From assembly GCF_900116295.1 (NCBI RefSeq), contig NZ_FPAF01000006.1, positions 1 through 64,000 on the forward strand: a stretch of 64,000 nt of DNA, written 5' to 3'. The position numbers were made by a program, and so were the translations under genes. The DNA is from Bacillus sp. 103mf (GTDB lineage: Bacteria; Bacillota; Bacilli; Bacillales; Bacillaceae_G). Below the pieces are notes generated by a model. It saw nothing but the letters and a program-made list of their open reading frames with translations, made no database searches and was not told the DNA's origin. Shown here piece by piece: positions 9,782 through 49,982 of the stretch. The number at the start of each line of letters is the position of its first letter. Position 1 is the first letter of the stretch.

Positions 9782-10372
9782 CTATTTTACATTTAATACA
9801 TACGACCCATTTTTATTTGCATATTTATAAACATGCAAATAATATTTCCCTGGTTTCGCATTATATTCTCCTTTAATGACATTAGACTTATTTTGTCCAT
9901 ATGCTACAAAGTTTTGTAAATCTGATTCATGATAAAGCGTCCATGTCATTCCAATCTGTTTTTCATTTAATACGGAAATATCTATATTTTGCGGTGAATT
10001 AATCGTAAAAGTATAGATATCTACCTTATCATTATCGTTAAGATTACCTTCAATAGTCGTATTAAAATTTAACAGTTTTGCCTGTATGTGTTGGTTATTT
10101 GGCTCTTGTTCTCGCGGTTTTTTTGAAGCTGAATCTTCTTCATTTGGTTGAAATCCTAATTTTAATAATATAGCTTTTAAATCTGGTAAAACACCAATTC
10201 TATCGTAAGATGGCTCCCCAGATTGTGTTCCTGTGTTTGGGTTACTTAAGATGTCCCTTAACTCACTTGGCCTATAGGGTTGACCCAAATGCTCTTTCGC
10301 AATGCTTTGTATGGAAACGGCTGCACCAGCAATAATTGGTGAAGCGCTCGATGTACCATTAAAGCTAGACGC
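9782..10372 (-). pseudogene. Subtilisin-like (S8) serine protease, C-terminal fragment
   Basis: The segment SFNGTSSASPIIAGAAVSI carries the catalytic serine of the subtilase GTSxASP motif. A C-terminal beta-sandwich of pre-peptidase (PPC) type follows (GNLNDNDKVDIYTFTI... GKYYLHVYKYANKNGSYVLNV). The Asp and His of the triad and the propeptide are missing. Upstream sequence is replaced at about 10372 by a hairpin-bearing IS end. The secreted enzyme it came from would have been an extracellular protease. Confidence 0.75.
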
Positions 10373-10375
10373 TAG

Positions 10376-10440
10376 GTGTAAAAAGAAGCTGTCCCAAAAG
10401 GTCGTTGAATAACGGCATTTTGAAGACAGCTTCTTTTTTA
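10376..10440. mobile_element. IS end with long hairpin
   Basis: AAAAAGAAGCTGTC pairs with GACAGCTTCTTTTT (10381-10440). This resembles the ends of IS1182-type elements. It marks the break point of the S8 protease gene. Confidence 0.4.
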
Positions 10441-10607
10441 CTCTTATATGGAGTAGTGACAGGGTTGCTGTCATAGACAGCAAAGTATGAACCAATAAAA
10501 TTATAAAAAGTGCAGTTTAGTTGTAGAAGGATAATGAACAAGAACATCCTATATTTTTAGATTTAGCGAAAAGCCCATTGTAAGGGTTCTTTTTTGATTT
10601 TTAAGGA

Positions 10608-11883: not shown

Positions 11884-11927
11884 AAAACCGTTATTTTGGT
11901 CACTTTTTTCAAAATAACGGTTTTTTT
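11884..11927 (+). terminator. Terminator of the PadR-DUF2812 operon
   Basis: AAAACCGTTATTTTG pairs perfectly with CAAAATAACGGTTTT, followed by more T residues. Confidence 0.8.
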
Positions 11928-11955
11928 AATTACTGCTGGTATAAGCCTCACCATA

Positions 11956-12074
11956 CATGCCCATCAACTTAAGAAAACAAATTCACCCCAAAACGAAAAA
12001 AGAGCTTTTTTATTACAAGTTAGAACAAAATCTCGTTCTGGGGGTAGTTGTATTTTCTTAGCTTGATAGCGATG
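11956..12074. mobile_element. IS231-derived miniature element, copy 2 (119 bp)
   Basis: It begins CATGCCCATCAACTTAAG and ends with inverted CATCGCTATCAAGCTAAG. Reverse-complemented it is nearly identical over its full length to the copy at 7522-7640. It is inserted in the IS3-type orfA relic at 12075-12532, whose frame reads through it to a false C-terminus. Confidence 0.75.
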
Positions 12075-12532
12075 GGGTGGGACCCCCATTAGATGTAAAC
12101 GCTCTTTTTCCGCTTGTAACGCCTCTATTGAACCTTCTACTACACTTTGTCCTTTAGTTGTGCTTGTTTTTTTCTTTTCCATGGATGGACGCCCCTTTTT
12201 CTTTGATTGTAGGGTATCCAATCCTCCTGTTTCATAAACTACTTTCCATTTTCGAAATGTTTTGCAAGAAGGAATATTGAAAAGCGCCGCTGTTTCCCTA
12301 ATAGATGTCCCTTGTTCATTCATATAATGAAGTACATCTAGTTATACTCGGAAGAGTAGGATGTATATCGTTTTTTAAAAGCTTTTTCACCTAAAGATTC
12401 ATATCTTTTAATCCATTGATAGAGCTCACTAGCATCAACACCTACAGATGTAGAATTTGTTCCTCCATCTTCAGCCCCATCTAAATACCGTCGCATCGCT
12501 TATATTTTGTCTTGTGAAAAAAATTTAGCCAT
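12075..12532 (-). pseudogene. IS3 family (IS150-like) OrfA relic
   Basis: From an ATG at 12532 the minus strand reads MAKFFSQDKI, then an in-frame TAA, then more OrfA-like sequence (DASELYQWIKRYESLGEKAF). A frameshift near 12345 leads into an open frame with a second helix-turn-helix (SIRETAALFNIPSCKTFRKWK) and the SKKKGRPSM linker. Two HTH units and the GRPSM linker are typical of IS150-group OrfA. It is broken by a stop, a frameshift and a miniature element, and orfB is absent. Confidence 0.7.
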
Positions 12533-12538
12533 AAAAAA

Positions 12539-12588
12539 GTGCCCCTCCAATTGTTAAACTGTGTCTAACAATTTGGGGGGCACTTCAT
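12539..12588. repeat. IS150-like left end forming a hairpin
   Basis: AGTGCCCCTCCAATTGTTAAA pairs with TCTAACAATTTGGGGGGCACT. It lies directly upstream of the broken orfA start. Transcription of orfA would begin inside or near it. Confidence 0.5.
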
Positions 12589-12604
12589 TTCAGTCGTCTT
12601 TTCC

Positions 12605-12621
12605 GGTTCTGATGCAAAAAC
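12605..12621. repeat. IS6-type terminal repeat remnant
   Basis: GGTTCTGATGCAAAAAC resembles the IS6-family end (GGTTCTGTTGCAAA). Similar remnants occur at 16279, 52664 and 53837. Confidence 0.45.
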
Positions 12622-12673
12622 TATATGCCTTATGTAACTAATCTCTAAAACCTGGACATGCTGATAAAACTGT

Positions 12674-13333
12674 CTAACTTAAGGCTAGTGTTTGATAAAC
12701 CTTTGGTAATCCTTTAATTTCCTCAATTACTTCATGATTTAATAGTTCCTCAGTTTCAATTACCAATAGAGATATTTTTCCTTTTTCCTTTTGCGATACA
12801 CGTATCCTATTAATATTAATTTTACGTGTTGCTAATATAGAAGTTACAGACGAAATAGTCCCAAAATGATCATTGTTCATAATAAGAAGAGCTGATCTTG
12901 TTTCATTTAAATTCAAATCAAAACCATTAATCTCAATAACTTTGATTTTTCCCCAACCAATCGAACAAGCAATCATCTCAATTTTATCTTCACCTTTGTA
13001 TAAAGTAATCTTTACTGTATTGGGATAAGACGGTTTTGCAATCTCTTCTATACAATTAACTGTAATTCCTCTTTCTGCTGCAATTGTAAGTGCTTTAGAG
13101 AATAGTGGGTCATTCATTTCAAAGCCCAAAATACCACCAACAAGTGCTACGTCTGACCCAAAAGTGCAATCAGTTTTTTTGAATGCCCCATATAAAGAAA
13201 TTTCGATTTTTTCTGGAGGCTTTAAAAATAGCTGACGAACAATATGTCCTATCTTTGTTGCTTCTACTCCATAAGCACTAGGTGTTCCAATAGTAATAGG
13301 ACCAATAACATCAAATACTGATTTATATTTCAT
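12674..13333 (-). CDS. L-serine dehydratase beta-subunit-like protein with ACT domain
   Basis: A 219-residue protein whose layout matches SdaAB. The N-terminal domain starts KYKSVFDVIGP and contains ...EISLYGAF and FGSDVALVGGILGF. The C-terminal ACT domain spans about residues 145-219 (ALLIMNNDHFGTISSVTSIL). In ordinary SdaAB the segment after IGP reads GPSSSHTAGA; here it reads IGTPSAYGVEATKIG, so the conserved SSHT is gone. No alpha subunit (Fe-S catalytic chain) lies nearby. It is therefore unlikely to be a working serine ammonia-lyase on its own and may be a regulatory or repurposed paralogue. The ribosome site AAGGAGAAAGG precedes the ATG. Confidence 0.75.
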   Translation of the reverse strand: MKYKSVFDVIGPITIGTPSAYGVEATKIGHIVRQLFLKPPEKIEISLYGAFKKTDCTFGSDVALVGGILGFEMNDPLFSKALTIAAERGITVNCIEEIAKPSYPNTVKITLYKGEDKIEMIACSIGWGKIKVIEINGFDLNLNETRSALLIMNNDHFGTISSVTSILATRKININRIRVSQKEKGKISLLVIETEELLNHEVIEEIKGLPKVYQTLALS

Positions 13334-13686
13334 GATTATCCTTTCTCCTTAATATTAGTAGTAGGGGTGCATTAATAAAATGTTTTTGTATTAAGAAAAT
13401 ATTTCATAACTGAAAGGTAATGAAAATACGGATTATAATAAGCGATCCATCCTTTTAGTAAGATATCTATTCAATATAAAAAGTTTTTTAATATTTTTAA
13501 CAATAACTTTTAATAAAAAGATGTATTGATTTATTTGTCATTATTGAAGGGGAACGATCATGTTTATTTAAAAAATCAGTAAATAGAGAATGCAATTTGT
13601 TAGATAGTTATGCCTTATTTACAATTACACTAGAAATCCTATAGATCTGTTCATACTATAAGGGAACAGTATTATATTTTATAAAT
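13334..13686. other. Promoter region of the SdaAB-like gene, no gene
   Basis: AT-rich, no supported ORF. It contains the upstream region of the SdaAB-like gene and is bounded on the right by the EamA terminator at 13687-13721, so the two minus-strand units are likely transcribed separately. Confidence 0.45.
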
Positions 13687-13721
13687 AAAGCCCATGGGAA
13701 TTTTTTAATTCCCTGGGCTTT
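13687..13721 (-). terminator. Terminator overlapping the end of the EamA gene
   Basis: AAAGCCCATGGGAATT pairs with AATTCCCTGGGCTTT around TTTTT. The hairpin includes the stop codon of the exporter gene. Confidence 0.7.
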
Positions 13722-14616
13722 CATTTTTCATAATATTCCGACTTCTGTACGGTAAGCGAAATCCTAGTGCAATTGCTGCTCCAATGCAACTAAATAAACA
13801 TCCGAACAGTAAATAGAGAGTAGGTGTAGAATCTCCAATCGCAACAGAGGCAATCCCACCTATTGCCGGAAAGAGTGCCACCATATAACTACTAACTGAT
13901 GCACCAATTCGTTCTACTAGCTTGAGGTAGAACATCCATGCCCCAAAGGAAGCAAATACAGTTAAAAATGCCAAAGCTCCAAGATAAGAAACGGACGTTG
14001 GTAGTATAAAGTTCTGTTCCTGAAAGGTACAAACAGCAAGTAAAAGTATCGAAGCCACAACAAAGCCAACACTATTCGAATAAACAGCATTAATACCACG
14101 TCGTGCATTTCGAGCGGAAGCTGCGTCACCAATAGCTGTAAGTATAGTTCCAAACAATGCGAGACCTATTCCTTTTAGATCACTTGTACTAGAGCCCTGT
14201 GTTAGTAGTGGATAAACTAATATAGAAACACCTACAATACCAACTATTCCCCCTATTAGAATTCGAGGATGAAGACGCTCATCTAGAAATATACGAAGTG
14301 CAATTGGTGTCAGAACTGTCTTCAATGAAAACAGCAGCGTTACTAGTGCAGCAGAAATCCAAATTGTCGCGTAGTATAAACACAAGTAACTTAGAGCTAA
14401 GTTACATACCCCAAAAGTAACAAGGGGAAAAACATCTTTACGAGAAGGCCTACCATTTGGACGTACCACGCACATGAGGACAATAAACATTAGTGCAGCC
14501 CCTACCAAGCGATAGGTTAATGACAATTCAAGGCTTACAGGAGTACCTTGTATTTTTACTGCAATAAAGTTCAATCCCCAAACGATTAAGCAGAAGATGT
14601 ACATAAAAATTGTCAT
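13705..14616 (-). CDS. EamA/DMT family transporter
   Basis: A 303-residue protein with about ten hydrophobic helices arranged as two EamA repeats (about residues 5-135 and 150-285). Typical features are the GLNFIAVK motif in helix 1 and ...[27 protein letters not shown] after helix 4. DMT proteins export small metabolites and amino acids. The ATG overlaps the stop of the aminolevulinate-synthase-like gene (ATGA at 14613-14616), so the exporter is made with the enzyme. I infer that it exports the enzyme's product or a derivative. Substrate unproven. Confidence 0.85.
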
Positions 14617-15845
14617 CCGTGTAACACTTCGTTCTGCGGTGCAAAAGGAATATCGAAATAATTAAAAACTTCTGTTAATACAACGGCCAGTTGTGCTATC
14701 TGTTCCTCAGTGTGATTTGGTGTAACATTAACTCGGAAGCGTTCTGTGCCAACAGGAACCGTTGGTGAATTAATAGGTTGCAGATAGACGTGATGTTGTT
14801 CAAGTAGACGTTGGGCAGCCGCTTTACATTTTTTTGCATCACCAATCAGTATAGGGAGAATATGAGTTTCACTTGAGTCCATTATCGGAATATTTGCTTG
14901 AGCAAGTGCTTCTCTTAACATGCTAGTTTTTTGGTGTAGAGCGTTCCGCTCGTTATCTGAAGATTTTAAGTGTTCCACACTAGCATAACAGGCCGCGACA
15001 ACAGCTGGTGGTAAGGATGTTGTAAAAATAAAACCAGATGCAAAAGAACGAACAGCATCAATTAGTAATGATGAAGCTGCAATGTATCCCCCGATTACTC
15101 CAATACCTTTTGCCATTGTTCCTTGAATAAAGTCCAATCGATCCACAAGACCTAGTTCAGCAGCTATTCCTGCTCCGCGAGGACCGTACATACCGATTGC
15201 ATGTACTTCATCAAGAAATGTTAAAGCGTTATATTTATCTGCAAGATCCGCAATTTTCTGAATCGGTGAGATATCGCCATCCATTGAGTATACTGATTCA
15301 AACACAATAATTTTTGCTCGATCATGTGGTTGAGCTGCAAGTAACTCTTCCAAATGGTTAACATCATTATGTCTAAATATTGCTCGTTCGACTTGAGTGC
15401 TACGTATACCATTAATAATTGAAGCGTGATTTCGTTCATCAGAAAATACTATGCAATTTGGAAATAGACGAAGTAAACATTGTAATGTTGCATCATTCGA
15501 GCCATATCCTGTAGGAAAAACTAATGCGGCTTCTTTACCATGCCATTCTGCAAGTGAAGATTCAAGTGCAGCGTAATGATAATGTGTACCACCTATATTT
15601 CGAGATCCGCCTGAACCAGCACCAAATGCTCGAATTGCATCATGCATTGCTTCAGTAACTACTGGGTGCTGAGACATTCCTAGATAGTCATTGCTGCACC
15701 AAACGACAACTGGTTGCCCATCTTTCTGGCCATTCAATTGTGCTAAAGGATATTGGCCACGCATCCGATTAATTGTAACAAATTCTCGATATTGTCCGCT
15801 TTCTTTCAAAGATTCGAGCTTATTTTCAATAATTTTTGCATACAT
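14613..15845 (-). CDS. 5-aminolevulinate synthase-like PLP enzyme
   Basis: A 410-residue alpha-oxoamine synthase. It reads like ALAS of alphaproteobacteria along its length: [71 protein letters not shown], the PLP lysine in GTMAKGIGV (Lys246), FIFTTSLPP and [16 protein letters not shown]. His140, Asp212 and His215 are the expected PLP contacts. Arg20 (QYREF) matches the arginine that, as I recall, binds the succinyl carboxylate. GGSRN has Ser where ALAS has Thr, so another acyl-CoA is possible. Bacillus makes ALA by the C5 route through glutamyl-tRNA, so this enzyme is more likely for a secondary product. Alternatives are BioF, Kbl or a CqsA-like aminoketone synthase. Ribosome site GGAGG precedes the ATG. 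Confidence 0.8.
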
Positions 15846-16278
15846 GACTTTTCCTCCAAGTATAGTTATAGTTTACAGTTCATCCAGTTTAATATTTTTT
15901 CATAAAAATTACGGAAAACTCTTAAACAATTGTTTTTTATTATGTTGGGAAAATATAATAAAACCAAACCAAAAACAAAATTATGCATATTTTTATAATT
16001 TTGTTTTTTAAAAACTTCAAATTTCTTTAAGTCAATATAATTAATTTCAAATAAATAATAACAATTTTTTGAAAATAAAACCATATTTTAGAATTTTATC
16101 AATAAAAAACAGATAATTATCATTAAAAAATGGTCATATTAAGCTAAATATTATAAGTAAAGACTAGTTTCCTCTAAAAGAATCACTGTAATAATTTGCA
16201 AAATCCATATAAAACAATACCTTTAGAACAAAATATAAATATAATTTTCTTATTTTTTATCAATATAACTTTTTAAAA
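15846..16278. other. Very AT-rich upstream region of the ALAS-like gene
   Basis: No supported gene. The stretch is dominated by A/T runs. It must hold the promoter of the ALAS-EamA operon, but I cannot single out boxes with confidence. Confidence 0.4.
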
Positions 16279-16593
16279 TTCTGTTGCAAAGTTGATTAAC
16301 ATCAAACTAGATAAGCAATTGGGGAGTACTTATTATGCAACTATAAATAAATCCCTTAATTCATTGCACACCGAAAAACAGGAGTCTGGTTTATGACTTC
16401 TGTTTTATTTGTATAGGGCATGATCGGTTTCGATTCCTTTCAAGGTACATGAAGCATGACGAATACTTTGAAGTCCTGCGAATTTGGCAAAGCGCCTTGT
16501 TACATGTCTATGGTCTTGTTCGATGAGATTGTTCAAATGTCTGACTGTACAATGAGTTGTATGTTGATAAAAACCTTGTTCTTTTAATTGAGG
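16279..16593 (-). pseudogene. IS6 family transposase, C-terminal fragment
   Basis: On the minus strand an open frame from about 16593 to the TAA at 16405 reads ...CTVRHLNNLIEQDHRHVTRRF and ...IRHASCTLKGIETDHALYK. This is the last DDE glutamate region and the C-terminus of an IS6-type (IS240/IS431-like) transposase. The sequence ATTCTGTTGCAAAGTT at 16279-16294 is the matching terminal repeat. The N-terminal half is missing. Confidence 0.7.
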
Positions 16594-16652
16594 TCACCAT
16601 ACATACCAATTCAGAAGGAATAGTATATTTTTCACCAACAAGGGGTCACTTA

Positions 16653-16865
16653 CATGCCCATCATTATCAAGCTAATAAAACAAAATTTACCTAAAATGAA
16701 AAAAATACGCTATTCTTTCTGTAGAATCATAGGAAAGGATGGCGTTTTTGTATATCTATTTCCGTATCTGATAAATTGCAACTATTTGCTCAAGAAATTC
16801 AAAGCTTCTTATCCCCAAATATCTTACGAGATCTTGCTAGAAGAACAAAATTTTTGATGAAGTAA
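16653..16865 (+). pseudogene. IS231-like element: left end and transposase N-terminal scrap
   Basis: CATGCCCATCATTATCAAGC at 16653 is an IS231-type end. About 100 bp later the frame from 16752 reads SDKLQLFAQEIQSFLSPNILRDLARR, matching the start of an IS4/IS231-family transposase, and stops at 16865. This is the only coding remnant of that family in the window and is the likely kind of parent for the ORF-less miniature copies. Confidence 0.6.
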
Positions 16866-17260
16866 ATATACTAAGAGTTGTAAAAAGAAAAAGCCGATTT
16901 CCTATAAAGTGAAACTTCACTCTACATCTACAATATGCTAAAAACCGTAGAAATTCATTATTCCTACGGTTTTATAACATGAAGTCTCGTTCTATTTCAT
17001 AATATTTTTCACATGACCAATTCGTATTTCACCTTCAGGATAGTATAAGTAACATATCCTGCATCTAGGTAAGTATATCTATACACCAAAAATTACAACT
17101 GTAACATCCCTATTAGAATGCAAATCAAAACATTCATACAAACAAGATTTTATTTAACATACCTTATATATTATATAACCATTCTTTTGAATACCGGATC
17201 AGTCAATTCTTCCTTAAAATGTAATAGGGAATATATTTTCAAACTAAAACAATCTAAGTA
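16866..17260. other. Intergenic region with one terminator
   Basis: No supported gene. A hairpin lies at 16940-16973; the rest is AT-rich sequence downstream of the 5'-nucleotidase gene. Confidence 0.4.
16940..16973. terminator. Hairpin terminator candidate
   Basis: AAAAACCGTAG pairs with CTACGGTTTT across a 14-base loop. It may end the 5'-nucleotidase transcript about 290 nt after its stop. Confidence 0.55.
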
Positions 17261-19222
17261 TTAGATTTCTCCTATATTTTTAATAACCCTATTAAGTTTT
17301 TTGTAAAATTCACCTTTTGTTTTTACATGTTTAAACTGATTTGGATTAACGTGAGCTTTTTGAGAGAGTGCTACAATCTCTTCTTCTGTAACTGAATCTT
17401 TAGTATTTATAGATGCTATATTTGTATATTTTCCATCTTCTGTTTTTGGAATTTCTAAAATCCCTTTATTTACGAGATTCACTACAGCCTTATGCTCTGA
17501 AGAATGTGTATCTACACCGGTAATTTTCCAATTATGCATAACTTTTGGCGTGTATACACCATTCTTTACCTCTTTTAAATATGTAATAGCAAGATTACGA
17601 ATGGTTCCACCTGTTTCACCAAATGCATTCTCTTGTTTAGATGACCAAATCTGTTCAAACTTACGTCCCTCTAAAGCCCCTCCTTTTGCTTGAAGAGCCT
17701 CCATTCTATATGCATTCATTCCCAAAGTCATAACATCGCTCATTTTGATTGGTTTATTTGTACGAATAGATCGCAAATTTGTAATTCGACTTCCATATGG
17801 TTTTGTTAAGTCAATTTCGTATTTCACGCCTCCAAAGAAGTCGTTCGTACTGTATTTAGACGCACGGCGTGTTTTATCAAAGCTAACTGTTACATCTCCG
17901 GCACGAGATGTGTTAAAATACCCCGCCGCCCATTCCATATAATCTTTTAAATCTTTTCCCGTTATCTTATATACTGTAATTTCTCCCAAAGCATATTGGT
18001 AATTATACGCAATATCTTTCTTCTTAATAGGACCTACATCTAAACGAGCATAATCGTTATCAATTTGATGGGCTACTACATCTGCTTTACTGTAATAGAG
18101 CATGACTTCATGAAAGAAATCTGATAAAGGTGTCTCTTGAATTTGCACGCTCGGGATACCATTTATTTCATTTTCAGGAACAAGATTCCTCCCCTTTAAT
18201 TGAGCGACTACAACATTTGCATCTCCTCTCGCATACTCGTGAAAAGGTGTTAATGTTTCTTCAAGTGCAGGATCGGATAATACCGTTGTTCCGTCAGCAT
18301 TTTTTACAGGTAAAGTGGTAGCTGTTTTATCTTTTAAAACCAGCTTCCCATCTTGCTTTGTAAAAGTAAGGTCAATACGTGAGATATGCGTGCCATACTT
18401 ATCTGGTTCTGTAATAATAACACCATTTACAACTTCTTTTTTAACAAGTTTATGCATATGTGCTGCAAAAATAGCGCTTAGTTCTGGACAGGCATTTGCA
18501 ATATCTTGAACCCCAGTACCAGGGATGCCATTCTCATTTTCTAGTCCCATATGCATAACCCCTACCATTACATCTACTTTACCTTCTAATTCTTTAATTG
18601 CCTTTTTTGTCTCTTCTACTGGATTTTTCACCACTAAACCAGCCAAATGATCTGTCCCTTTTTCAAAATCACTAATCATTGGTGTATCCATGCCAATAAC
18701 TCCAACTTTGATGCCACCTTTTTCAATTATCGTATATGCAGGAAGAAAACGCTCTCCATTTTCCTTGTAAATATTTCCTGCTAAAGTCTTTCCTTTATAT
18801 TGCTCACTAACTTTTTTCAATGTATCTAATCCAAAATTGAATTCATGATTTCCAAATGCCCAAGCATCATATCCCATTTCGTTCATTGCTACCATCATCG
18901 GAGACTGTGGCTTATCATTGAATAATTCTACTGAGTTCCCTTGAATTGTATCTCCAGCATCTAATAATATGGTATTCGGATTTTCTTGACGTACCTTCTT
19001 TATAACCGTATAAAGCTGCGTTAAGCTTCCACTCATATTAGCACCATCAAGTGCATAATCCCAAGGCATAAACCTACCATGAATATCTGCAGTACCCAAT
19101 AATGTAATATTAACATCAGATTCCTCTGCTTTAGAGATAACTGGTTTGATTGTTATTGCTGCTCCAAGCAGTATAAAAATAACAAAATAACATACAAGGC
19201 TCTTCCATCTCATTTTTGGCAT
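17261..19222 (-). CDS. Secreted 5'-nucleotidase / 2',3'-cyclic nucleotide phosphodiesterase
   Basis: A 653-residue exported metallophosphoesterase. A signal peptide occupies about residues 1-32 (hydrophobic 9-30). The calcineurin-like domain shows TADIHGRF (Asp46, His48), LLDAGDTIQGN and FGNHEFNFG, then the VGVMHMG and FAAHMHK histidines. The 5'-nucleotidase C domain follows (about 330-540). The last ~90 residues form an extra domain (HSSEHKAVVNLVNKG... VTEEEIVALSQKAHVNPNQF). No LPxTG anchor is seen. It releases nucleosides and phosphate from extracellular nucleotides and can also blunt host purine signalling; the latter is inference. Single-gene unit. Confidence 0.85.
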   Translation of the reverse strand: MPKMRWKSLVCYFVIFILLGAAITIKPVISKAEESDVNITLLGTADIHGRFMPWDYALDGANMSGSLTQLYTVIKKVRQENPNTILLDAGDTIQGNSVELFNDKPQSPMMVAMNEMGYDAWAFGNHEFNFGLDTLKKVSEQYKGKTLAGNIYKENGERFLPAYTIIEKGGIKVGVIGMDTPMISDFEKGTDHLAGLVVKNPVEETKKAIKELEGKVDVMVGVMHMGLENENGIPGTGVQDIANACPELSAIFAAHMHKLVKKEVVNGVIITEPDKYGTHISRIDLTFTKQDGKLVLKDKTATTLPVKNADGTTVLSDPALEETLTPFHEYARGDANVVVAQLKGRNLVPENEINGIPSVQIQETPLSDFFHEVMLYYSKADVVAHQIDNDYARLDVGPIKKKDIAYNYQYALGEITVYKITGKDLKDYMEWAAGYFNTSRAGDVTVSFDKTRRASKYSTNDFFGGVKYEIDLTKPYGSRITNLRSIRTNKPIKMSDVMTLGMNAYRMEALQAKGGALEGRKFEQIWSSKQENAFGETGGTIRNLAITYLKEVKNGVYTPKVMHNWKITGVDTHSSEHKAVVNLVNKGILEIPKTEDGKYTNIASINTKDSVTEEEIVALSQKAHVNPNQFKHVKTKGEFYKKLNRVIKNIGEI

Positions 19223-24183: not shown

Positions 24184-24480
24184 CTATAAATGCAACATTT
24201 CGCTCTTTATAACTTGAATATACTCCTGCAACTTACAAAACGCTTCTGTGAGCTTGCTTGTTTCTTCTGTATGAAGGAAGCGTGCTTTGTTTCGCTCTTC
24301 CTCTATGATAAGCAGCTGCGCGGCAGCATAAGAGAGACCATACCGTTCGCATTCTCGTTTCATATCATGAAAAAAAGAAAGAGGTACAGTACCTGCTCCC
24401 GAGATGAGCATCTCATCTAGAAATTGTTCCAATTCATCGATTATACGCACTAACTCTATCATAGAACGTTTCTCCTTCAT
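24184..24480 (-). CDS. Small helical protein at the end of the yeh-like operon
   Basis: A 98-residue, almost wholly helical protein (MIELVRIIDELEQFLDEML ... TSKLTEAFCKLQEYIQVIK). Its start overlaps the 3' end of the SWIM gene by 47 bp, so it belongs to the operon. No domain recognised. It has no evident counterpart in the E. coli yeh set, so it may be a Bacillus-specific partner. Confidence 0.65.
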   Translation of the reverse strand: MKEKRSMIELVRIIDELEQFLDEMLISGAGTVPLSFFHDMKRECERYGLSYAAAQLLIIEEERNKARFLHTEETSKLTEAFCKLQEYIQVIKSEMLHL

Positions 24481-26065
24481 TGAGTGTAATATTTACAATC
24501 TCTCCTGCTTCTGTATATAAGATGACAGGTGTGACAACGAGCTTTGTACTCTCCTGATAGGAATGAACAAGCATTCGCTTTACGTTCAACGAGCCCATAT
24601 ACATTTTTACCAGTCTAATCATTCGTTCGTTTTCTGGTCGTTTCAGCATTTGCATTTGCAATATTTTACCGTCCTTATCGATAAGAGGAACAATCCATTT
24701 TTGTTCTTTTTCCTGAAGCAGCCATTCTCCTATTTCAGCAGCTTCTATACAAAATATTCCTTGCTTATTTGTCTCTAGCTGCTTTACTTTTTCTAACAAT
24801 TCCTCCCATGAGGTCAGAAAAAGAGATTGCCACTCTGCTACATTTGTTTTTCCATCTGTTTCCCCTGCTGTTTGTGAACTAGATGACAATTGAAAATCGG
24901 CGTTAAGTTTTGCCTGCTTCAGTCGAAAAAATGAACGAGACAGTTCGTATCCTTTCCCTGCAATTCCCCATGGAGCTTGCTTTTCATGAAGTATTTCAGG
25001 AGTTGTGCTCATTCCTTCATAAAACATCGGACGCGACTGCGTGTATGTCATCCACTTTTCCTGCTCTTGATTATAGAAATAATACGTTACACCAACATAA
25101 CCGGACTTCGTTTGCCAGCCGGATGCACCGAAGGCATACAAAATAAGCGGCGGTACTTCATAATATTCCGAGCGATACGGGCTCTCTTGCAGGCAATGCC
25201 TTTCTAATAACACAATGTGTTCATAAATCGCAGACAGCGTTTGCCGATAGGATGCCATTTGAAAAGACGCATGTTTCATCCGATATAGCCCGATATCTGT
25301 CGCGAGCTTACGAAATAAGTTCTCTAACTTTACTAGTTTCAAAGAACGAGCTTTTACAGAAAGTTGTTCTATTTCATTGATTGTGTTTTCAGTAAGCCGC
25401 GTTAATCCAAAATGAACAACTTGCTCGATCATCTCTTTGAAAGGGGATAACTTTTCCGGAGCAATGATAAGGGGGTTCATCTGTTTCGTTTCATGCAAGA
25501 CCCCTTTCTCCTTTTGATACCAATACACGGCTTCCGCCTTATGACGGCATATCCCATCTGCTTTACACGTACAGATCGCATCAGCTACCGATTCAGCCGT
25601 TAGAAAGCGAACCGTTATATTCTCTTCTGGAAAGGACGCAATTAAAGCTGCCTCTTCTTCCAAAATGAACTTCGGCTGAAATGTTTCGCGAAACATCATT
25701 TCAGCCCACACCTTTTCAGAAACAATGCTGCGTACGTCCACATTCAAAAGAGGGGAAAAATCAACCTTCGTTTCCTCTTCTCCTTCATACATCTTCTTAG
25801 CTTCGAGCAGCGCCATAATTACATGCTTGCAAATGGAGCGGGCCTCACAAGTACATGAGTAACTACGGATATCACCTGTAAACGTTACAGCAATTTCGTC
25901 ATCAAACTGTATTTGCGCTGCATTCTCTTCTATGTCCATTTTGACATTTGATACAGCTGCCAGATCCTTGGTCGCCCTCTTATATGTTCCTTTGTTGGAC
26001 ATTGCGATCAAGTATGTTTCATCAATAGAGGAAAGAACATTTAAGAAATGATTGCTGCGATCCAC
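24434..26065 (-). CDS. SWIM zinc finger protein (YehQ-like)
   Basis: A 543-residue protein with two SWIM-type CxCxnCxH motifs: Cys71-Cys73-Cys79-His81 (YSCTCEARSICKHVIMALL) and a second near residue 160 (ICTCKADGICRHKAEAVYW). SWIM fingers bind zinc and contact DNA or protein. The rest is helical with a beta C-terminus. The start overlaps the VWA gene by 25 bp. By order and domain it corresponds to YehQ of E. coli. No function has been shown for that family as far as I know. Confidence 0.85.
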   Translation of the reverse strand: MDRSNHFLNVLSSIDETYLIAMSNKGTYKRATKDLAAVSNVKMDIEENAAQIQFDDEIAVTFTGDIRSYSCTCEARSICKHVIMALLEAKKMYEGEEETKVDFSPLLNVDVRSIVSEKVWAEMMFRETFQPKFILEEEAALIASFPEENITVRFLTAESVADAICTCKADGICRHKAEAVYWYQKEKGVLHETKQMNPLIIAPEKLSPFKEMIEQVVHFGLTRLTENTINEIEQLSVKARSLKLVKLENLFRKLATDIGLYRMKHASFQMASYRQTLSAIYEHIVLLERHCLQESPYRSEYYEVPPLILYAFGASGWQTKSGYVGVTYYFYNQEQEKWMTYTQSRPMFYEGMSTTPEILHEKQAPWGIAGKGYELSRSFFRLKQAKLNADFQLSSSSQTAGETDGKTNVAEWQSLFLTSWEELLEKVKQLETNKQGIFCIEAAEIGEWLLQEKEQKWIVPLIDKDGKILQMQMLKRPENERMIRLVKMYMGSLNVKRMLVHSYQESTKLVVTPVILYTEAGEIVNITLNEGETFYDRVSAYNR

Positions 26066-27147
26066 TGTGCCAACCTCCCTGGTGTTAGCGCCGCTACATG
26101 AGCACCGAGCGCTGCCATTTTTTTCGCTGCCTGTTTATCATAAAAAGGCTGTGCAGTTGGATCAAGAGAAGTAAGTACAATAAGCTTTGCTCCTGATTCC
26201 ACAATCTTTATCGCTTCTCGGTACATTTCAGCGTAACTGCCGCCTTCATATAAATCCGTTACAAGCACAACAATTGTTTTGTGCGGCATCTCTATTTTAT
26301 TCGTTGCATAGCGCAGCGCCTGGGCAATATACGTTCCGCCCCCAAGCTGTACATTCATAAGCGTTTCGACTGGATCGTCAATACGATCTGTTAAATCAAC
26401 AACGGATGTATCAAAGATGAACAAATCTGTCTTAATCGTTGGTAAACTTGCAAAAATGCCAGCCATAACTGCACTATGAATAACAGAATCAATCATGCTT
26501 CCGCTCTCGTCTACTGCAAGAATTACACGCCATGGGTTAACGTGCTTCGTTGCCGCATAGAAATATGGTTTTTCAATATGGATGGTGTTCGTTTCCTTGT
26601 CAAAATGCTTCATGTTCTTTCGAATCGTTTTCTTAAAATCAAAGTTGCGCATCGTGTGTACACGGCTAGCGCGGTTTCGATCCGGTCTGCCACTTAAAGC
26701 GAGCTTCACTTCCTGCTCTAAATTAAGGCGCAACTCCTCAGCTACTTTGGCCACAATACGCTTTGCGGTGTCCAATACATCCGGATTTACATGATCCTTA
26801 AATTGTAAGATGCATTTTAACAGATTCATATTTGGTTCCATTTTTTCAAGCGTTTGCTTATCCTGCAGCAAAGCCGTTAATTCATACTTTTCCAGCGCAT
26901 GTTTTTCCATAATTTCAATTGTTTCTTTCGGAAACAACTCGCGCACTTTCGAAACCCAAGTGGGCACTGTTAGCTGCGAAGGATCCAGCGACCCGCCGCG
27001 CTCTTCCCCGCGCTCCCGTTCATACAAAAACTCCAGCGCTTCGTCCATCTCCCTGTATACAGGGCTTTCTTCCTGAAATGTTATTTGATCATCCGCATAT
27101 TTCCCAAGAACAAGACGCCATCGATTCAAAGAGATCTTATTCTCCAT
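26041..27147 (-). CDS. VWA domain protein (YehP-like)
   Basis: A 368-residue protein with a C-terminal von Willebrand A domain. The MIDAS motif DESGS lies at residues 213-217, with the downstream Thr in GGGTYIAQAL and the Asp in VTDLYEGG. The N-terminal half is helical. VWA proteins of this CoxE-like type act with MoxR ATPases as metal- or substrate-loading adaptors. Here the MoxR gene is two genes upstream. The gene overlaps both neighbours by 11 and 25 bp. Confidence 0.88.
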   Translation of the reverse strand: MENKISLNRWRLVLGKYADDQITFQEESPVYREMDEALEFLYERERGEERGGSLDPSQLTVPTWVSKVRELFPKETIEIMEKHALEKYELTALLQDKQTLEKMEPNMNLLKCILQFKDHVNPDVLDTAKRIVAKVAEELRLNLEQEVKLALSGRPDRNRASRVHTMRNFDFKKTIRKNMKHFDKETNTIHIEKPYFYAATKHVNPWRVILAVDESGSMIDSVIHSAVMAGIFASLPTIKTDLFIFDTSVVDLTDRIDDPVETLMNVQLGGGTYIAQALRYATNKIEMPHKTIVVLVTDLYEGGSYAEMYREAIKIVESGAKLIVLTSLDPTAQPFYDKQAAKKMAALGAHVAALTPGRLAQWIAAIIS

Positions 27148-29443
27148 CTTCTAGCCCCCGTCTCATCAAAATCTCCCGTGCCTTCTGGTCTAACTGCATT
27201 GCATACGTCAGCACAGCTTCCGAAATCACTTCTTCTTTCACCACTTCTTCTGTTGTGTCATATAACCGAGCAATCTGTCTGGCGATCGTATCGACTTCAA
27301 GCGGAGTGAATTGACTGAACAAGAGGCGCAAATGCGGCAGTACTTGCAAAAATGTCTCCTCATCAAGTTCTTGCAGAACATGAGACATCCCGCCAAGCAG
27401 CGACTCGTTATATAAGAAAATATCTTTTGCACCAGCAAACAAACCATTCAAAAATAGAGGGGCCTGCTTTTGCATATCGCCGCTCCCATAAAAGTATCCT
27501 TCTGCCACTTGAATGACATCATCAACCGTCCTCTTCGTTAAGGACGTTAACAGCCCAAATACTGCTCCTTCTACCTGACTTTCCCGTTTTTCTTTTTGCA
27601 AATAAAGCTCTAACGCTTCAATAAATTGCTGATCTGCAGGCTGCAATGTATACAAATCGATAAGCTTTTCCGCAATAATTTCCGGCTCGCCGCCATCTAA
27701 AACAGAGAATAACGAAAGCGCTTTGCTTCGGGCGCTTTCCGCCTGTTGATTCGTTTTTTCTATTTGCGATAAATAATAAGCGCAATCTGCTATAGACACA
27801 AAGTCTCCATCCTCTTGTATAGCCTCATCCATTAACGGGATGTACATGGAAAAATCGGAAAATAACCCGCTTAAGTAGGCTTCCATCAATAAAAGAGCCA
27901 CCTCTCCCGCACGCCCTTTTGCCTTATACAGCTTTGCTCGCAGCACTTCCTGAGCGGCTTCTCTTACCGTTCCACCATACACAGATAAGTCAATGAGAGC
28001 ACTTTCCACCTGTGCTGAGAAACGATATTTCCAAGTTTCTCGCATAAGATTGATGTTCTGTTTTCTAGCAAGATTTGGGCCGCGCAGCTTCTCGCAAAAC
28101 GGAACCTCTAAAAAAGCAAGGCAATGAAAGAATTGACTTAAATGCTGATGCCGTTCTTTCTTATATATGTCAAGAATCGTTTCATGCGGTACAGTGGAGC
28201 GGGCTGGAAGACGAAACGAACGAACAGAGGCACGAAAATCATGCACGAGCGGCGGCACATCCGCTTCTTTTGACAATTTTCCTCGCTTCGTCCCTTGCAG
28301 ACTCTTCTGAAGCAGCATCAAAGGTTTATCTGCCGAGGATATCTCTCCCTTAACAAATGCGCTATGCACCGCGTCCATCAGCTCATACAATCCAGGTTGC
28401 ATCTTGCCTCGAAGTAGCGCAAGTTCACGGATCATTCGCGCAGCCTCAATCTCATCTGCTATTGATATCCCTTCTGTTTTTAACTGCCTAGCAACCCGTA
28501 TCATAAATTGCTCAGCTGCCGCTTTATCCCTGTTCTCCCATATGTGTTGGTAAAAAGCAGGTGCAGGCATGCCGCTCCCATAACCGCGCGTCTGGTCGCT
28601 TTCCAAAAAGGAGTACGGCATAAGATACGTTTTTGCATATGCTGCAGACAACGGACTTTTGGACAGTTTCTTCTTTTCTCCTTCTAATTCAAGAAGTCCC
28701 TTCACATGAAAGCCTCCGGTAATTACGAGCACCTTATCATATGCTTTACGCGCTTTTTCAATTTCCTTTGCCATATGTATTTCTCTAGCCATGCAGCCGT
28801 CTTCTATCAACATCTCCTGCGTATAGTCCGCACGCGTGTAATAACAATAATGGAAGAGCTGCTGGATAAACTCCTCGCTTGTCATATGAAAACCTTGCAA
28901 TTCAAAATATTTCTCCCAAAATTCATGAAAACTTCGGCAACCCGTTTTTTCCGAGAGCATACGGACATATTGACTGTGCCGGAAGTATTGTTCATCATAC
29001 TTCCCGCGCTCTTCTTCGTTTTTCGTTACATACAAATATTCCTTATAGGGAAGATCAATAAATGAAACCGGAATGTTGCGTGCAGCTCCTTCCCGAAGTG
29101 CGACAAGTTCCGGTGAATAGTCGAGAAAGGGATAGTACGCACGGTACTTTCCACTCTCTCCTTTTTCAAGCACATCCGCTTTATCATCATAACTGCAATA
29201 TATACAAATCGGAGCCTCACTCTCGGCACTCACGATATGCGGAATAAGCGGATTACAATCAATTGGCCCCTCTATAAGAATCGCATCCGGTTTATATGAT
29301 TCAACTATTTTTTGTACATGAAAAGAGCATGCAGGACTATGATGGCGAATCGGCACGTATACGACGTTGTTGTTTACATTGTAAGCTCTTTGAAACAATG
29401 TGTTTACTTCAGCTGATTGCGAGCTTCGAAAAACGACTTCCAT
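27137..29443 (-). CDS. DUF5682 family protein (YehM-like)
   Basis: A 768-residue protein. The N-terminal block VYVPIRHHSPACSFHV followed by AILIEGPIDCNPLI and the VLVITGGFHVKGL strand are typical of DUF5682. The middle and C-terminal thirds are helical, with repeat-like pairs. It resembles a TraB/ChaN-type fold at its N-terminus, which is inference. It overlaps the MoxR gene by 40 bp. The ribosome site GGAGGAGAGG precedes the ATG. Counterpart of E. coli YehM by position. Confidence 0.85.
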   Translation of the reverse strand: MEVVFRSSQSAEVNTLFQRAYNVNNNVVYVPIRHHSPACSFHVQKIVESYKPDAILIEGPIDCNPLIPHIVSAESEAPICIYCSYDDKADVLEKGESGKYRAYYPFLDYSPELVALREGAARNIPVSFIDLPYKEYLYVTKNEEERGKYDEQYFRHSQYVRMLSEKTGCRSFHEFWEKYFELQGFHMTSEEFIQQLFHYCYYTRADYTQEMLIEDGCMAREIHMAKEIEKARKAYDKVLVITGGFHVKGLLELEGEKKKLSKSPLSAAYAKTYLMPYSFLESDQTRGYGSGMPAPAFYQHIWENRDKAAAEQFMIRVARQLKTEGISIADEIEAARMIRELALLRGKMQPGLYELMDAVHSAFVKGEISSADKPLMLLQKSLQGTKRGKLSKEADVPPLVHDFRASVRSFRLPARSTVPHETILDIYKKERHQHLSQFFHCLAFLEVPFCEKLRGPNLARKQNINLMRETWKYRFSAQVESALIDLSVYGGTVREAAQEVLRAKLYKAKGRAGEVALLLMEAYLSGLFSDFSMYIPLMDEAIQEDGDFVSIADCAYYLSQIEKTNQQAESARSKALSLFSVLDGGEPEIIAEKLIDLYTLQPADQQFIEALELYLQKEKRESQVEGAVFGLLTSLTKRTVDDVIQVAEGYFYGSGDMQKQAPLFLNGLFAGAKDIFLYNESLLGGMSHVLQELDEETFLQVLPHLRLLFSQFTPLEVDTIARQIARLYDTTEEVVKEEVISEAVLTYAMQLDQKAREILMRRGLEDGE

Positions 29444-30510
29444 GCCTCTCCTCCTACTTGACTTCGTGCTCTGACGATGCTTGTAAAGTAACTGCGCAGC
29501 TTTTCTAAATCTTCCTTGTTTTCTTTCGCAATCGTTCCGGATAAGTATCGAACAAGTGCATCCATCTTTACCTGTCCGCTTCCATAATAATACGCATCCA
29601 TTGCACTTTGATAATATACTGATACTGCTTCTGCGGTACTCATAACAGAAGAAGGCTGATCAATTCGTTTTCCTTCAGCGGTCACGCCTTCCCGCAGCTC
29701 ATGAAAAACAGTCGCCAATAGCTGAACAACCGTCCGGTCCACTTCTGGTACGATGCCAGATGCCCCTAATAAGCGCATTACTTGCGACTCTATAATTTTT
29801 GCTTCAAGCTTTACATCTTTAATTGGATGCACTGTTTCAAAATTAAAACGACGCTTCAATGCACTACTCATTTCATTCACACCGCGATCACGTGTGTTGG
29901 CAGTCGCAATAATATTGAATCCAGGCTTTGCTGTAAGAATTCCTTGCTCCCCAAACTCCGGAATGTTCAGCACCTTATCGCTCAGAACACTAATCAACGA
30001 ATCCTGCACTTCCTGCGGGCAGCGCGTCAACTCTTCAAATCTAGTTAATATCCCTTGTTCCATACCAACGAAAAGGGGGCCTGGCACAAGGGCCTCTCTT
30101 ACAGGCCCTTTCGCAAGAAGAAGTGCATAGTTCCATGAGTACTTAATCGTATCTTCCATCGTAGCAGCTGTTCCTTGCACAGTGTTACGACTATTTCTGC
30201 ATATCGCAGCAGAAAGCAACTCACTTAACATCGTCTTTGCTGTTCCCGGCTCTCCGATTAGCATAAGTCCGCGATTCCCTGCTAATGTGACAATAGCTCG
30301 TTCCACAAGCGCATCATTACCGTAAAATTTACGACTAATTTCTACTTCCTGTCCCTGCCAAAGAAGCGGTTCTTCTTGTCCGATAATAAACGTACGAACC
30401 GCACGTGGTGACAACCGCCAGTTAGCTGGTTTTGGAAACGAATCATTCGCTTCTAAAGCATTCAATTCTACTTCATATAATTCTTCCATTAACGGTTTAA
30501 TAGATTGCAT
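29404..30510 (-). CDS. MoxR-type AAA+ ATPase (YehL-like)
   Basis: A 368-residue AAA+ protein: Walker A GEPGTAKT at residues 86-93, a Walker B/sensor region around LTRFEELTRCPQEVQDSLISVL, sensor 1 in IIATANTRDRGVNEM and an arginine-finger region ALKRRFNFE. MoxR ATPases remodel partner proteins, usually with a VWA adaptor, here encoded in the same operon. The gap to the DUF4132 gene is 15 bp. Confidence 0.9.
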   Translation of the reverse strand: MQSIKPLMEELYEVELNALEANDSFPKPANWRLSPRAVRTFIIGQEEPLLWQGQEVEISRKFYGNDALVERAIVTLAGNRGLMLIGEPGTAKTMLSELLSAAICRNSRNTVQGTAATMEDTIKYSWNYALLLAKGPVREALVPGPLFVGMEQGILTRFEELTRCPQEVQDSLISVLSDKVLNIPEFGEQGILTAKPGFNIIATANTRDRGVNEMSSALKRRFNFETVHPIKDVKLEAKIIESQVMRLLGASGIVPEVDRTVVQLLATVFHELREGVTAEGKRIDQPSSVMSTAEAVSVYYQSAMDAYYYGSGQVKMDALVRYLSGTIAKENKEDLEKLRSYFTSIVRARSQVGGEAWKSFFEARNQLK

Positions 30511-30525
30511 ATGTCATTTCCCTTC

Positions 30526-33500
30526 TTATCGCTTACTGCGCCAGTTTTCATCACGGCCGAGATTCGATTCTGTCGTCCGTTTTATATCATATAAAATTTC
30601 GCTGAAAAAACGTTCAGGTACTTGCTTTGGTGCGATACGTCTCGCATCATCAATTTCGTCATAGGAGTATGAATCGCGGCTCACTGTGCCAGCTTTATAA
30701 AATTGAATTTCAAATAAGCAGACATCGTCCTCTCCTTCATATCCAACCGATACACCTTCAAATGCAAGCTCCGCCCCTAATCCTGTGCGAGCGTCTTCCT
30801 TATAGAAGGTATAATACACACCAGCATCTGCAACCGATCCGCGATTCCAGCCGTACTTCGTCAACTTACCAAACAGCGAACGACCATTCATTTGAATGCC
30901 AGCAAACCTTTCCACAGTTACTTCCTCATCTTCCTTCGCCCGAAATACTTCGCGGGCAATTTGCGGGAATGGCTGGACAACCTCATAATCTTCTAATTGT
31001 TCCTTCCATAATTCCCGTTCCTCTTCAGACAATTCTAGTGGATGGATCAAACCAATAACGGTGTCTGGCGTAAATTCATGCTCATCTTCTTCAATCGTAT
31101 TAAACGTACCGTCCTCCATATAACGGAACATCGCAAGCACTTTTCCTTCCTTATACTCGCCCCAAATAAGCGAGATAGCAAATTGCTGCATAATTGGATT
31201 TTCCACAAACAGAGACTTCCATGTATCTTGTGACCAATAGCGATTGAGAGAAAGCGCCATTTCCAGACGCTGCGTTTGCATCGTAATGATGCTTCGCAGC
31301 TGTTTCTTGATAGACGATAACTCCGCCTTAGCCTCTTCTGCCTTTTCCGCATGATCTTTTGCATTTGGTTTCGGAAGCGACTTCATTTGTTTTCCTTCTT
31401 CTGTTTTTAAATCGATTTTCAAGTTTGGCGTTAAATAGGCAGTAAACGTCCTGCTTCCGTAATCAATTGTCTTTTCACCGCGTTTATTAAAACCAAGGTC
31501 TGGAACAAGCTGATCTTCTAATTCTTCTTCTGTTATACCGCGCGTTTTAGCAGCGAGACTCAACGCTTCTTTCGCAGCATTACGCACCTGCTTATGTTTA
31601 TATTTGAATGCCATAGTATTAATCGTCATAAGTGCAAGATGTGATGAAGACAACGCCAACGCCTGAACAGCTGCAGCAGCGATAGCTCCGCGCATGCCAA
31701 GTGCCCACTCATCAATCTGCTTTTTGAGAAGCAGCGCCATTTCATCATTACTATGAATGCCGTACATCGAAAGAATACCGCGCTTCTTCGCTTCCGCACC
31801 TTGAGAAATCCACAGCTGATAAATCGCTTGTATATGTTCTTTCAAATCTTGTTCATTCAGAGCAGCACCTATTGCTTCCGCTGCTTCCTTTTTCTCAATT
31901 ACAGACTCCGATACATACTGCTGAAAATAAGCAAGAGGAAGCGTTGCATCTGCAATTGCATCGGAATCACGAAGACGAATTTGCGGTTCAAATCCGAGCC
32001 ACTGCACGAGTGCGTTTCTTTTTTGCGGCGTTAAAATACGTGTACAAAGAGCTTCAATACTTCCTGATGCCCCTTCTAGGACTTCATCACCAAGCAGCGG
32101 AGCAAACTTCTCCATCAAAGAAGCATTTTTCTTTTCTTGCAAAGCTTCCTGTACAAGCTGTGTATATTTTTCAGATTTATAGTATAAAAGTGTCTGCATT
32201 GCATTTTCGCGCACGACTTTCTTTCTACTGTTCAGTTCCTTTGCTACATCCTCTGCAGCTTCCACATCTTTTGTAAGCAATTCAACTGCAACAGCACGTA
32301 CTTTTTTAGAGGAATCTCCGAGACTTTGAATGAGAAGCGCGCGCGTTTTAACCGCATCATTCTTTGCTAGCTCATCCAAAATGAAAATTCGTTCATCCAC
32401 AGAATACTCAGTAAATGTCTCTGTCACATATACCCGTTCTTTTACAAACAAATTAACGAGCGCCTCTTTTGCCTTATTTTCCTTCCCACTGTGCCAGGCA
32501 GCTTGTTTAACTGAATGAGAAACGAGCTTCTCCCTTAATAAACCATAGGAAAGAAGATCTTCTAACATTTGTTCCAGCGAACTTTCCATATGAGAATATC
32601 GGTACAGAAGTTCATATAAACTACAATTATAATCATTCACGAATTGAAGTTCGAGCGCTGCTTCTCTCTTTGCCGCTTCCTCTATATCCCAAAGGAGTGC
32701 AATTTCTAAGACAGGCATTCTCCAGTAATTATTTTGATGTTTCGAACTTTCGAATACTTGCTTCATATCTTCAAATGACAATTTTCCAACTAAATAGTCA
32801 CGATATGTATCACGTATATCAGATGATATCGACTGAAGGACAATCGTTAAAAATTCTTCACGTACTCTGTTTCGATTTAATTCGCATCCATTTTCCGCCA
32901 AAAGCATCGCCACGAAAAGATAATGACTTTGACTTACATATTGCAGCGTACGCTGAACAAATTCCGGCTGCTCTTCCACCATACGAAACAACAATTGATA
33001 TTCATATACCTGGTCGAAGTTAATACCACCTAAATGATGATGTGTAAGACGATATGCGAAAAATCTTTCCTCTGAAATACCGAATTGTTCGCACAAATTT
33101 CGAATTGTTTCATACGCTTGTTTATCCAAACGTTTTGTTCTTACATGATTTCCAAACTGATCAAGAACACGACACACATGACCCTTTGCATAATTCATAA
33201 AATTTTCAACAGAACATTTCGCTAACAAGTCCATATATCGTCTTGCCACATTCGAATGCTGATAAACACGAAATAATAGCTGCCAAGTCACATCAGGTAA
33301 AGACGAACCGACGGAAACTTCACTAACAGATTCACCTTGAACGTATCTTTTAGCCAATTCTATCTTCTCTTGTGCCCCGTCCAGCCTCAATATAAACTCC
33401 GCATGCTCTTGCAGTTCTTTCTCCAATAAAGAACTGTAAGTAAGAAATCTCTCATAATCTGTACCTAGCATAAGCAGAAGTAAAACTAGCTTTGGCCGAC

Positions 33501-41384: not shown

Positions 41385-41504
41385 TTAGTTTTTAAATATG
41401 TTTTATAAGCGAATCTCTGTCGTTTTTTAGTTACACCCTAATCCCCCTCTCTTAATCTCTCAGGACTTTAAGAGATAACGATTAAAATCTTGTAAATAAA
41501 GAGA

Positions 41505-41612
41505 CTACTTTTTTAGCACCTTAAGAATTTGGTTGCACTTCGTACACATGATTAAAGTAGGACCTCCCAGTTGTTTTACTGATTGTAATTGAGCATGTTC
41601 ACATTTTTCCAT
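41505..41612 (-). CDS. 35-aa zinc-ribbon-like peptide
   Basis: A short frame too small for most gene finders: MEKCEHAQLQ at the start, then PTLIMCTKCNQILKVLKK at the end. Cys4, His6 and the CTKC pair could bind one zinc ion. A good AAGAGGTG ribosome site lies 11 nt before the ATG. It sits between lacZ and the galactanase gene in the same direction, so it is likely cotranscribed. Similar tiny CxxC proteins exist in the B. cereus group, but no function is known to me. Confidence 0.55.
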   Translation of the reverse strand: MEKCEHAQLQSVKQLGGPTLIMCTKCNQILKVLKK

Positions 41613-41721
41613 GTTTTGTTTTACACCTCTTTTTGTAAAAGAGGAAACTCAAGGCTTTTATTACATCTCAAAATTATAATAAAATCTCTTAGAATTTCCC
41701 CTTAAATGTCCTATTCTTAAT

Positions 41722-44898
<3,177 letters not shown>

Positions 44899-45068
44899 TC
44901 AATTTTAAAAATAGTCATAATCACTCTTACTCTATATCAAGAATATCAACCAGCATGAAAATATTTATTTATATAACTTCAACGTTATTTAACGTTTTTT
45001 CGAAAGAAGTCTCTCTCTTCAATAACTAGAAATTTCACCTCCTCTAATACAGTTCTTTTTCGAATATT

Positions 45069-47560: not shown

Positions 47561-47577
47561 CGTTTCCACCTCACTCA

Positions 47578-49962: not shown

Positions 49963-49982
49963 TTTAAATATCCTCCACTCTT

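Follow-up and report, generated by a model that had tools for sequence, protein, structure and literature searches.

The window analyzed here, meaning the whole 64,000-nucleotide stretch at the start of contig NZ_FPAF01000006.1 of Bacillus sp. 103mf (assembly GCF_900116295.1), carries on its minus strand two overlapping genes, one for an enzyme of the 5-aminolevulinate synthase (ALAS) family and one for a transporter. The features of this pair and its immediate surroundings are as follows.

15853–15857, minus strand: ribosome-binding site GGAGG, 7 nt before the ATG of the enzyme gene (from the sequence)
14613–15845, minus strand: putative AlmA-type alpha-oxoamine synthase (ALAS family), 410 aa, with S81 at what we take to be the R. 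capsulatus T83 position and K246 as the presumed PLP lysine (from ORF, profile, structure, tree, and residues)
13705–14616, minus strand: transporter of the EamA/DMT family, 303 aa, whose gene shares 4 bp (ATGA) with that of the enzyme (from ORF, Pfam, blastp, and selection)
13683–13726, minus strand: strong hairpin over the transporter stop codon, a possible terminator (-22.1 kcal/mol, z -5.59; none of 200 shuffled sequences reached so low a value)
16666–16841, no strand assigned: remnant of an IS4-type transposase, located upstream of the cassette (92.7% match to plasmid sequences of Priestia filamentosa that carry the annotation IS4 family transposase)
11964–12323, minus strand: transposase-like helix-turn-helix fragment downstream of the cassette (HTH_28, 36 bits)

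The enzyme is encoded by a single open reading frame of 410 aa running on the minus strand from an ATG at 15845 to a stop at 14613, and the plus strand of the same stretch contains stops all along. The first-pass annotation had placed the gene correctly but gave no strand; it also lacked the EamA exporter and the kinship with the alaremycin enzyme, and these, like the minus strand, were found in the present follow-up. The neighboring product scores 97.3 bits, in two stretches, against a gathering score of 28.2 for Pfam EamA and is thus a member of that family. The two genes look like one closed transcription unit, ending at the hairpin, whose tail is only moderately T-rich and which was not listed by a consensus terminator scan (1 found, 2.2 expected). 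A promoter scan performed no better than on shuffled sequence (20 versus 16.0, sd 4.2), no RNA element reached the Rfam gathering thresholds within 11900–17300, and a search for flanking repeats that could be insertion ends of the cassette gave nothing convincing. The G+C content of the two cassette genes is 40%, as compared to 32% and 36% in the two neighbors measured and 36% in the window. Insertion-sequence matches suggest a host from the Bacillaceae.

We found that the enzyme scores 563.2 bits against the NCBIfam 5-aminolevulinate synthase model TIGR01821 (cut-off 338.55), while it remains under the cut-offs of the bioF model (351 bits; cut-off 426), two glycine C-acetyltransferase models (317 and 276 bits; cut-offs 460 and 493, respectively), and the CqsA-type model PRK07179 (206 bits; cut-off 428). 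The top solved structures, 2bwn (E 8.6e-127) and 7x98 (5.5e-126), are both named 5-aminolevulinate synthase, and these profile and structure scores together exclude chance as the source of the match. The first-pass annotation had called the protein an ALAS-family enzyme rather than BioF or Kbl and had proposed a phylogeny as a check; in the tree described below, E. coli bioF and kbl fall far outside the clade of the enzyme, CqsA having been compared by profile only. We thus conclude from these comparisons that the predicted product is an ALAS-type alpha-oxoamine synthase and not BioF, Kbl, or CqsA.

Scanning genome contigs with the enzyme protein gave 113 pattern matches and, from these, 96 relatives, the best 80 of which represent 79 distinct loci. 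The resulting tree has 85 rows: E. coli bioF and kbl, and 83 from the ALAS family (the scan loci, plasmid loci, and two loci that came from searching whole genomes). The terms haem-type and cALAS-like (cALAS being cyclizing ALAS) are our own row labels, assigned from the tree and from residues. Four loci that resemble the clade but have an enzyme frame that is short or broken (L044, L078, L043, and L075) were left out of this tree and of the layout counts, as were the repeat loci L087–L095, and L008 and L032 come from one genome. The window enzyme lies in a clade of 48 rows (support 99/97) that spans Bacillaceae, Paenibacillus, Brevibacillus, Staphylococcaceae, Streptomyces, Tsukamurella, several gammaproteobacteria, one Alcaligenaceae bacterium, and Fluviispira; outside the clade are 27 haem-type rows, mostly alphaproteobacterial, and 8 actinomycete cALAS-like rows. 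One haem-type row, L070, joins the base of the clade at weak support (88/71), and the tree program flags long branches for bioF, kbl, L084, and others. The closest row to the window enzyme in this tree, the scan loci of which derive from the best 80 of the 96 relatives, is L001 of Brevibacillus dissolubilis (85% identity), and the pairing is supported at 96/96 here, at 97/81 in a 48-row tree from which L002, a near copy of L080, was left out, and at 85/86 in a 12-row tree. On sequence grounds, then, the window enzyme is not an ordinary haem ALAS; it is a member of a scattered clade. Among the copies left out of the tree, that of Photorhabdus bodei (L043:8001-9201) matches over residues 1–400, with an open frame that starts late, at 8341, and is possibly broken.

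At the residue level, the claim that the enzyme follows alphaproteobacterial ALAS across all PLP and substrate motifs stands only in part. R20 (the Arg of QYREF), K246, N83, I84, H140, D212, H215, T362, and R371 are all present, and we take K246 to be the PLP lysine and R20, N83, T362, and R371 to be the Arg, Asn, Thr, and Arg of the substrate site. The claim fails at S81, the sole listed substrate-pocket residue unlike the haem-type rows, in which position 81 is Thr in 27/27. Ser occupies this position in 31/31 type I rows and 13/13 type II rows (the two gene layouts described below), in three Tsukamurella rows set apart from these, in L029, and also in 8/8 cALAS-like rows. By numbering, we take S81 to be the counterpart of R. 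capsulatus T83, and Thr83, the mark of haem-pathway ALAS, is therefore absent from the window enzyme. This assignment agrees with the available text of PMC4525017, in which Thr83 is said to place the succinyl carboxylate and to direct the choice of amino acid and in which Ser at position 83 is crucial for cyclization in cALAS, a kind of enzyme that makes ALA and then cyclizes it. The accessible portion of PMC11906848 names the position equivalent to ThAOS V79 as the one for amino-acid selectivity, with Ser in SPT (L-Ser) and AONS (L-Ala), Thr in R. capsulatus ALAS, and Val in KBL; by our own reading, this is again the T83 position. S81 thus speaks for an altered pocket without proving serine as the substrate, because Ser is also found in all of the cALAS-like rows, an ALA-making kind. 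No position separates type I from type II at a 75% threshold in the alignment of clade rows, and both types therefore most likely share their substrates.

Layouts were counted over 49 clade loci, namely the 48 clade rows and L098. In 34 of these (type I), the enzyme gene is accompanied by GNAT and Gfo/Idh/MocA genes, with an MFS gene in 33 of the 34 (the MFS gene of L084 is cut by the record start); in 14, the window included (type II), it is accompanied by an EamA/DMT exporter gene, and no locus carries both sets. L029, from Fluviispira, is neither type, having a third layout (L029:8001-11980) with an ATP-grasp protein and an MFS match under the cut-off. By blastp, an exporter gene (DMT or MFS) is present in 47 of the 49 loci; the two without a counted exporter are L002, which stops at a contig end, and L029, where the MFS match is weak. 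For L096 and L097, with 1.5 kb of flank only, the lack of other genes is weak evidence. The omitted broken-frame loci carry GNAT, Gfo, and MFS (L044), Gfo and MFS (L078), MFS only (L043), or none of these (L075). Loci with the acetyltransferase thus carry MFS while loci without it carry an amino-acid-type exporter, an arrangement that fits export of a free amino-keto acid.

Within type II, the 4-bp overlap of enzyme and transporter genes recurs in 10 of the 12 loci examined (the window and seven more, plus L007 and L034), with the two genes adjacent in L083 and divergent in L081. Comparison of 12 of the 14 loci by blastp found no third conserved gene in more than three of them; the other matches were ABC ATPases (in three loci, at 25–29% identity) and two pairs, one of ClpP (27%) and one of IS3 transposase (33%). 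Because the DMT tree is poorly resolved and places L003, not L001, closest to the window transporter by path, joint descent of enzyme and transporter is not proved. EamA and RhtA of E. coli belong to the same EamA/DMT family; RhtA is just 25% identical to the window transporter (E 8e-4, no phmmer match).

The enzyme gene and its partners are found on plasmids of Parageobacillus, Priestia, Rahnella, Macrococcoides, and S. capitis. In addition, a 42,767-base IMG/VR contig carries the two-gene cassette (L098:3045-8469) between the terminase large subunit and portal genes of a phage late operon, with genes for a ClpP-like protease and capsid coming next after the portal. ALAS has already been published on aquatic phage genomes (PMC11480375, as far as its available text goes); the window type differs in that, among the 80 loci listed in our wider viral scan, 79 have the haem-type Thr and one has Ser, the latter being the L098 contig with its type II cassette. 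The INPHARED phages yielded 19 records, all below 60% identity (best, 33.9%), and the window transporter as query found no relative in viral contigs, in a search that depends on near-exact peptides and does not pick up the L098 copy (64%). Transporter homologues 60–66% identical to that of the window, with no ALAS nearby, were seen in the three regions viewed on Priestia megaterium and Peribacillus plasmids (L180, L181, and L182).

The clade also holds L071, from the alaremycin strain Streptomyces sp. A012304, with which the window enzyme groups to the exclusion of the haem-type and cALAS-like rows (99/97). L071 is the only ALAS over the cut-off in that genome (556 bits; the next match, at 314, is under it). 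It is 71–73% identical to the window enzyme and has the same residue at 11 of 12 listed positions; at position 247, the window enzyme has Gly and L071 has Ala. The surroundings differ, since L071 has GNAT, Gfo/Idh/MocA, and MFS genes next door, whereas none of these has a match among the window ORFs of at least 80 aa at E 1e-5, and the window has the EamA transporter instead. We infer that L071 is AlmA, the enzyme that opens the pathway to the antibiotic alaremycin, and that its surroundings are the alm cluster. AlmA reportedly joins L-serine and succinyl-CoA, a finding that, like the alm gene names, is said to come from Okui and colleagues. Two reviews, in their accessible parts, cite Okui et al. 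2025 for alaremycin biosynthesis in Streptomyces sp. A012304. They present alaremycin as an analogue able to displace ALA or to suppress the synthesis of porphyrins, and porphobilinogen synthase is named in one of the two.

We propose that the pair, scattered as it is among unrelated bacteria, probably serves to produce and release a compound resembling the haem precursor aminolevulinate. The AlmA-type enzyme would condense an amino acid with succinyl-CoA to give a 5-amino-4-oxo acid; because of the kinship with the alaremycin enzyme and the presence of S81, the amino acid would most likely be L-serine, giving 5-amino-6-hydroxy-4-oxohexanoate, with alanine, or glycine (giving ALA), as possible substitutes. 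The overlapping EamA/DMT exporter, from a family that includes amino acid and ALA exporters, would move the free amino-keto acid out of the cell, where it would act on neighbors as an antimetabolite, an ALA look-alike that upsets their tetrapyrrole synthesis. A secreted aminoketone, one of the products that had been suggested from the sequence alone, is the best reading because the exporter gene overlaps that of the enzyme by 4 bp and because an exporter gene is so regularly present at the clade loci. Counting against the proposal are the low identity to RhtA and the plasmid-borne DMT homologues with no ALAS nearby. Substrates, direction of transport, and target are predicted here, and we regard the proposal in its entirety, that of a self-contained and horizontally mobile two-gene cassette with these activities, as moderately probable.

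Alternatively, the enzyme could use glycine, and the cassette would then make and secrete plain 5-aminolevulinate, either as a weapon (through porphyrin overload and light damage) or as a shared haem precursor. The top profile score is that of ALAS, the Ser-bearing cALAS-like rows are of a kind that makes ALA (available text of PMC4525017), and EamA and RhtA are in use as ALA exporters, their overexpression raising ALA in E. coli culture (PMC11184883 and PMC10991938, both in part). However, with the thresholds applied, 19 positions along the protein distinguish types I and II together from the haem-type rows, and some of these adjoin active-site residues (81/85, 143, 244, and 370/373); four of the 19 (81, 85, 101, and 143) are common to most or all cALAS-like rows, and G85, W101, and I143 of the window enzyme are also found in most of them. 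Moreover, the clade member from the alaremycin strain reportedly serves a six-carbon-acid product, not ALA. We therefore consider secretion of plain ALA possible but unlikely.

An additional ALAS could also feed the cell's own haem or corrinoid pathway. The enzyme fits the ALAS profile, and it shares with haem-pathway ALAS (R. capsulatus 2bwn and the haem-type rows, the latter 46–54% identical) its family, the PLP lysine, and the succinyl-binding residues, but it differs from these in having Ser for Thr83, in its separate clade, and in that the hosts of its relatives have the C5 pathway. A C5-pathway reductase was over the cut-off in 12 of the 12 relatives' genomes tested, in line with the earlier remark that such an enzyme is out of place in a bacterium using that pathway. 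The gene is in addition rare and patchy, occurring in 1/39, 4/397, 5/397 (a largely overlapping draw), and 4/157 genomes with the starting carriers counted, and the exporter gene in 47 of the 49 clade loci likewise argues against a role in the cell's own haem supply, which we judge very improbable.

We also strongly doubt that the pair is the functionless remainder of a type I (alaremycin-like) cluster shrunk by the loss of its tailoring genes. Types I and II do interleave in the tree, with 4 changes on the best trees, 2–3 of them forced by well-supported branches; the AU test rejects one common clade of the 14 type II rows (p 1.35e-5) but not one of the 10 non-staphylococcal type II rows (p 0.064), and an independent-pairs test had only 2 supported pairs and no power. 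However, the type II exporter is of a different family, with no left-over MFS; both reading frames are open and evolve under purifying selection in the five pairs tested (dN 0.04–0.20, dS from 0.33 to saturation); and the pair is found within a phage late operon as well. Least probable of all, to the point of being hardly credible, is a cyclizing ALAS serving as precursor enzyme for a C5N (aminohydroxycyclopentenone) unit, a link raised in the first-pass annotation: S81 is one of the cALAS marks named in the available text of PMC4525017, but the second mark, T365S, is absent (T362 is kept), whereas 8/8 actinomycete cALAS-like rows have Ser at both positions and form a separate clade, and no acyl-CoA ligase or amide synthase was seen among the 23 window ORFs given to Pfam.

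Starting from a secreted ALA look-alike, one could envision a minimal antimetabolite system, carried by phages and plasmids, in which one enzyme and one exporter make and release 5-amino-6-hydroxy-4-oxohexanoate. As an ALA analogue without the acetyl group, this compound would poison the tetrapyrrole synthesis of competitors. The ALAS-less transporter homologues on plasmids, including the exporter-only Priestia plasmids, would possibly represent immunity genes, and the window would show just one of the layouts in a wider family headed by AlmA, whose members differ in their tailoring steps: acetylation (alaremycin), with AsnB-type amidation added in gammaproteobacteria (perhaps primocarcin), and ATP-grasp ligation in Fluviispira. 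This extension is tentative, and we would not be surprised to see it fail. We know of no report of 5-amino-6-hydroxy-4-oxohexanoate as a natural product, and the amide of alaremycin would presumably be primocarcin. An AsnB-like amidotransferase gene was observed in the alm-type clusters of gammaproteobacteria and Alcaligenaceae (L026:10832-12685, with matching genes in L018, L021, L025, L030, and L076); 6 of the clade's 7 rows (all but L082) have this gene, flanked by those for Gfo/Idh/MocA and MFS.

Parts of this picture were known already, namely haem-type ALAS on phages (PMC11480375) and shared hemA loci with their role left open (PMC4525017), as read from the available text of both. In the latter, Petrickova et al. 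(2015) describe "blue branch" hemA loci common to actinomycetes and Geobacillus thermoglucosidasius or Chromobacterium via horizontal transfer, with no conserved context, without the typical cALAS marks, and with a function termed a "black box"; these possibly overlap the window clade, and the exporter pair is not mentioned in that text. Among the titles and abstract openings listed, from a literature that covers only a minority of subscription papers, no description of the two-gene enzyme and EamA/DMT cassette was found. The scattered, unexplained hemA genes of C5-pathway bacteria would gain a likely job in making secreted ALA look-alikes rather than haem, and makers of alaremycin-type compounds are predicted in Bacillota, Pseudomonadota, and Actinomycetota. 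The two-gene unit, of a kind present also in a phage late operon, makes the proposal directly testable.

Elsewhere in the window, a gene for the beta subunit of L-serine dehydratase (12674-13333, minus strand) adjoins the downstream transposase-like fragment, with no alpha-subunit ORF seen alongside. With serine a likely substrate, we considered it as a partner of the cassette and rejected it; it is absent from all fetched loci searched, and the hairpin lies in between. At 9782-10495 (minus strand) is what looks like a truncated subtilase, consisting of a PPC domain and a weak match, under the cut-off, to the last part of the peptidase domain. A block of SWIM, VWA/CoxE, DUF5682, and DUF4132 genes at 24434-33954 (minus strand), with 38–44% G+C as compared to 36% for the window, looks like an acquired island, and 38865-51449 (minus strand) holds a galactose-type block encoding a GH30-like enzyme with ricin-type lectin domains, a beta-galactosidase, an epimerase, GalT, a GalK-like kinase, and a sugar transporter.
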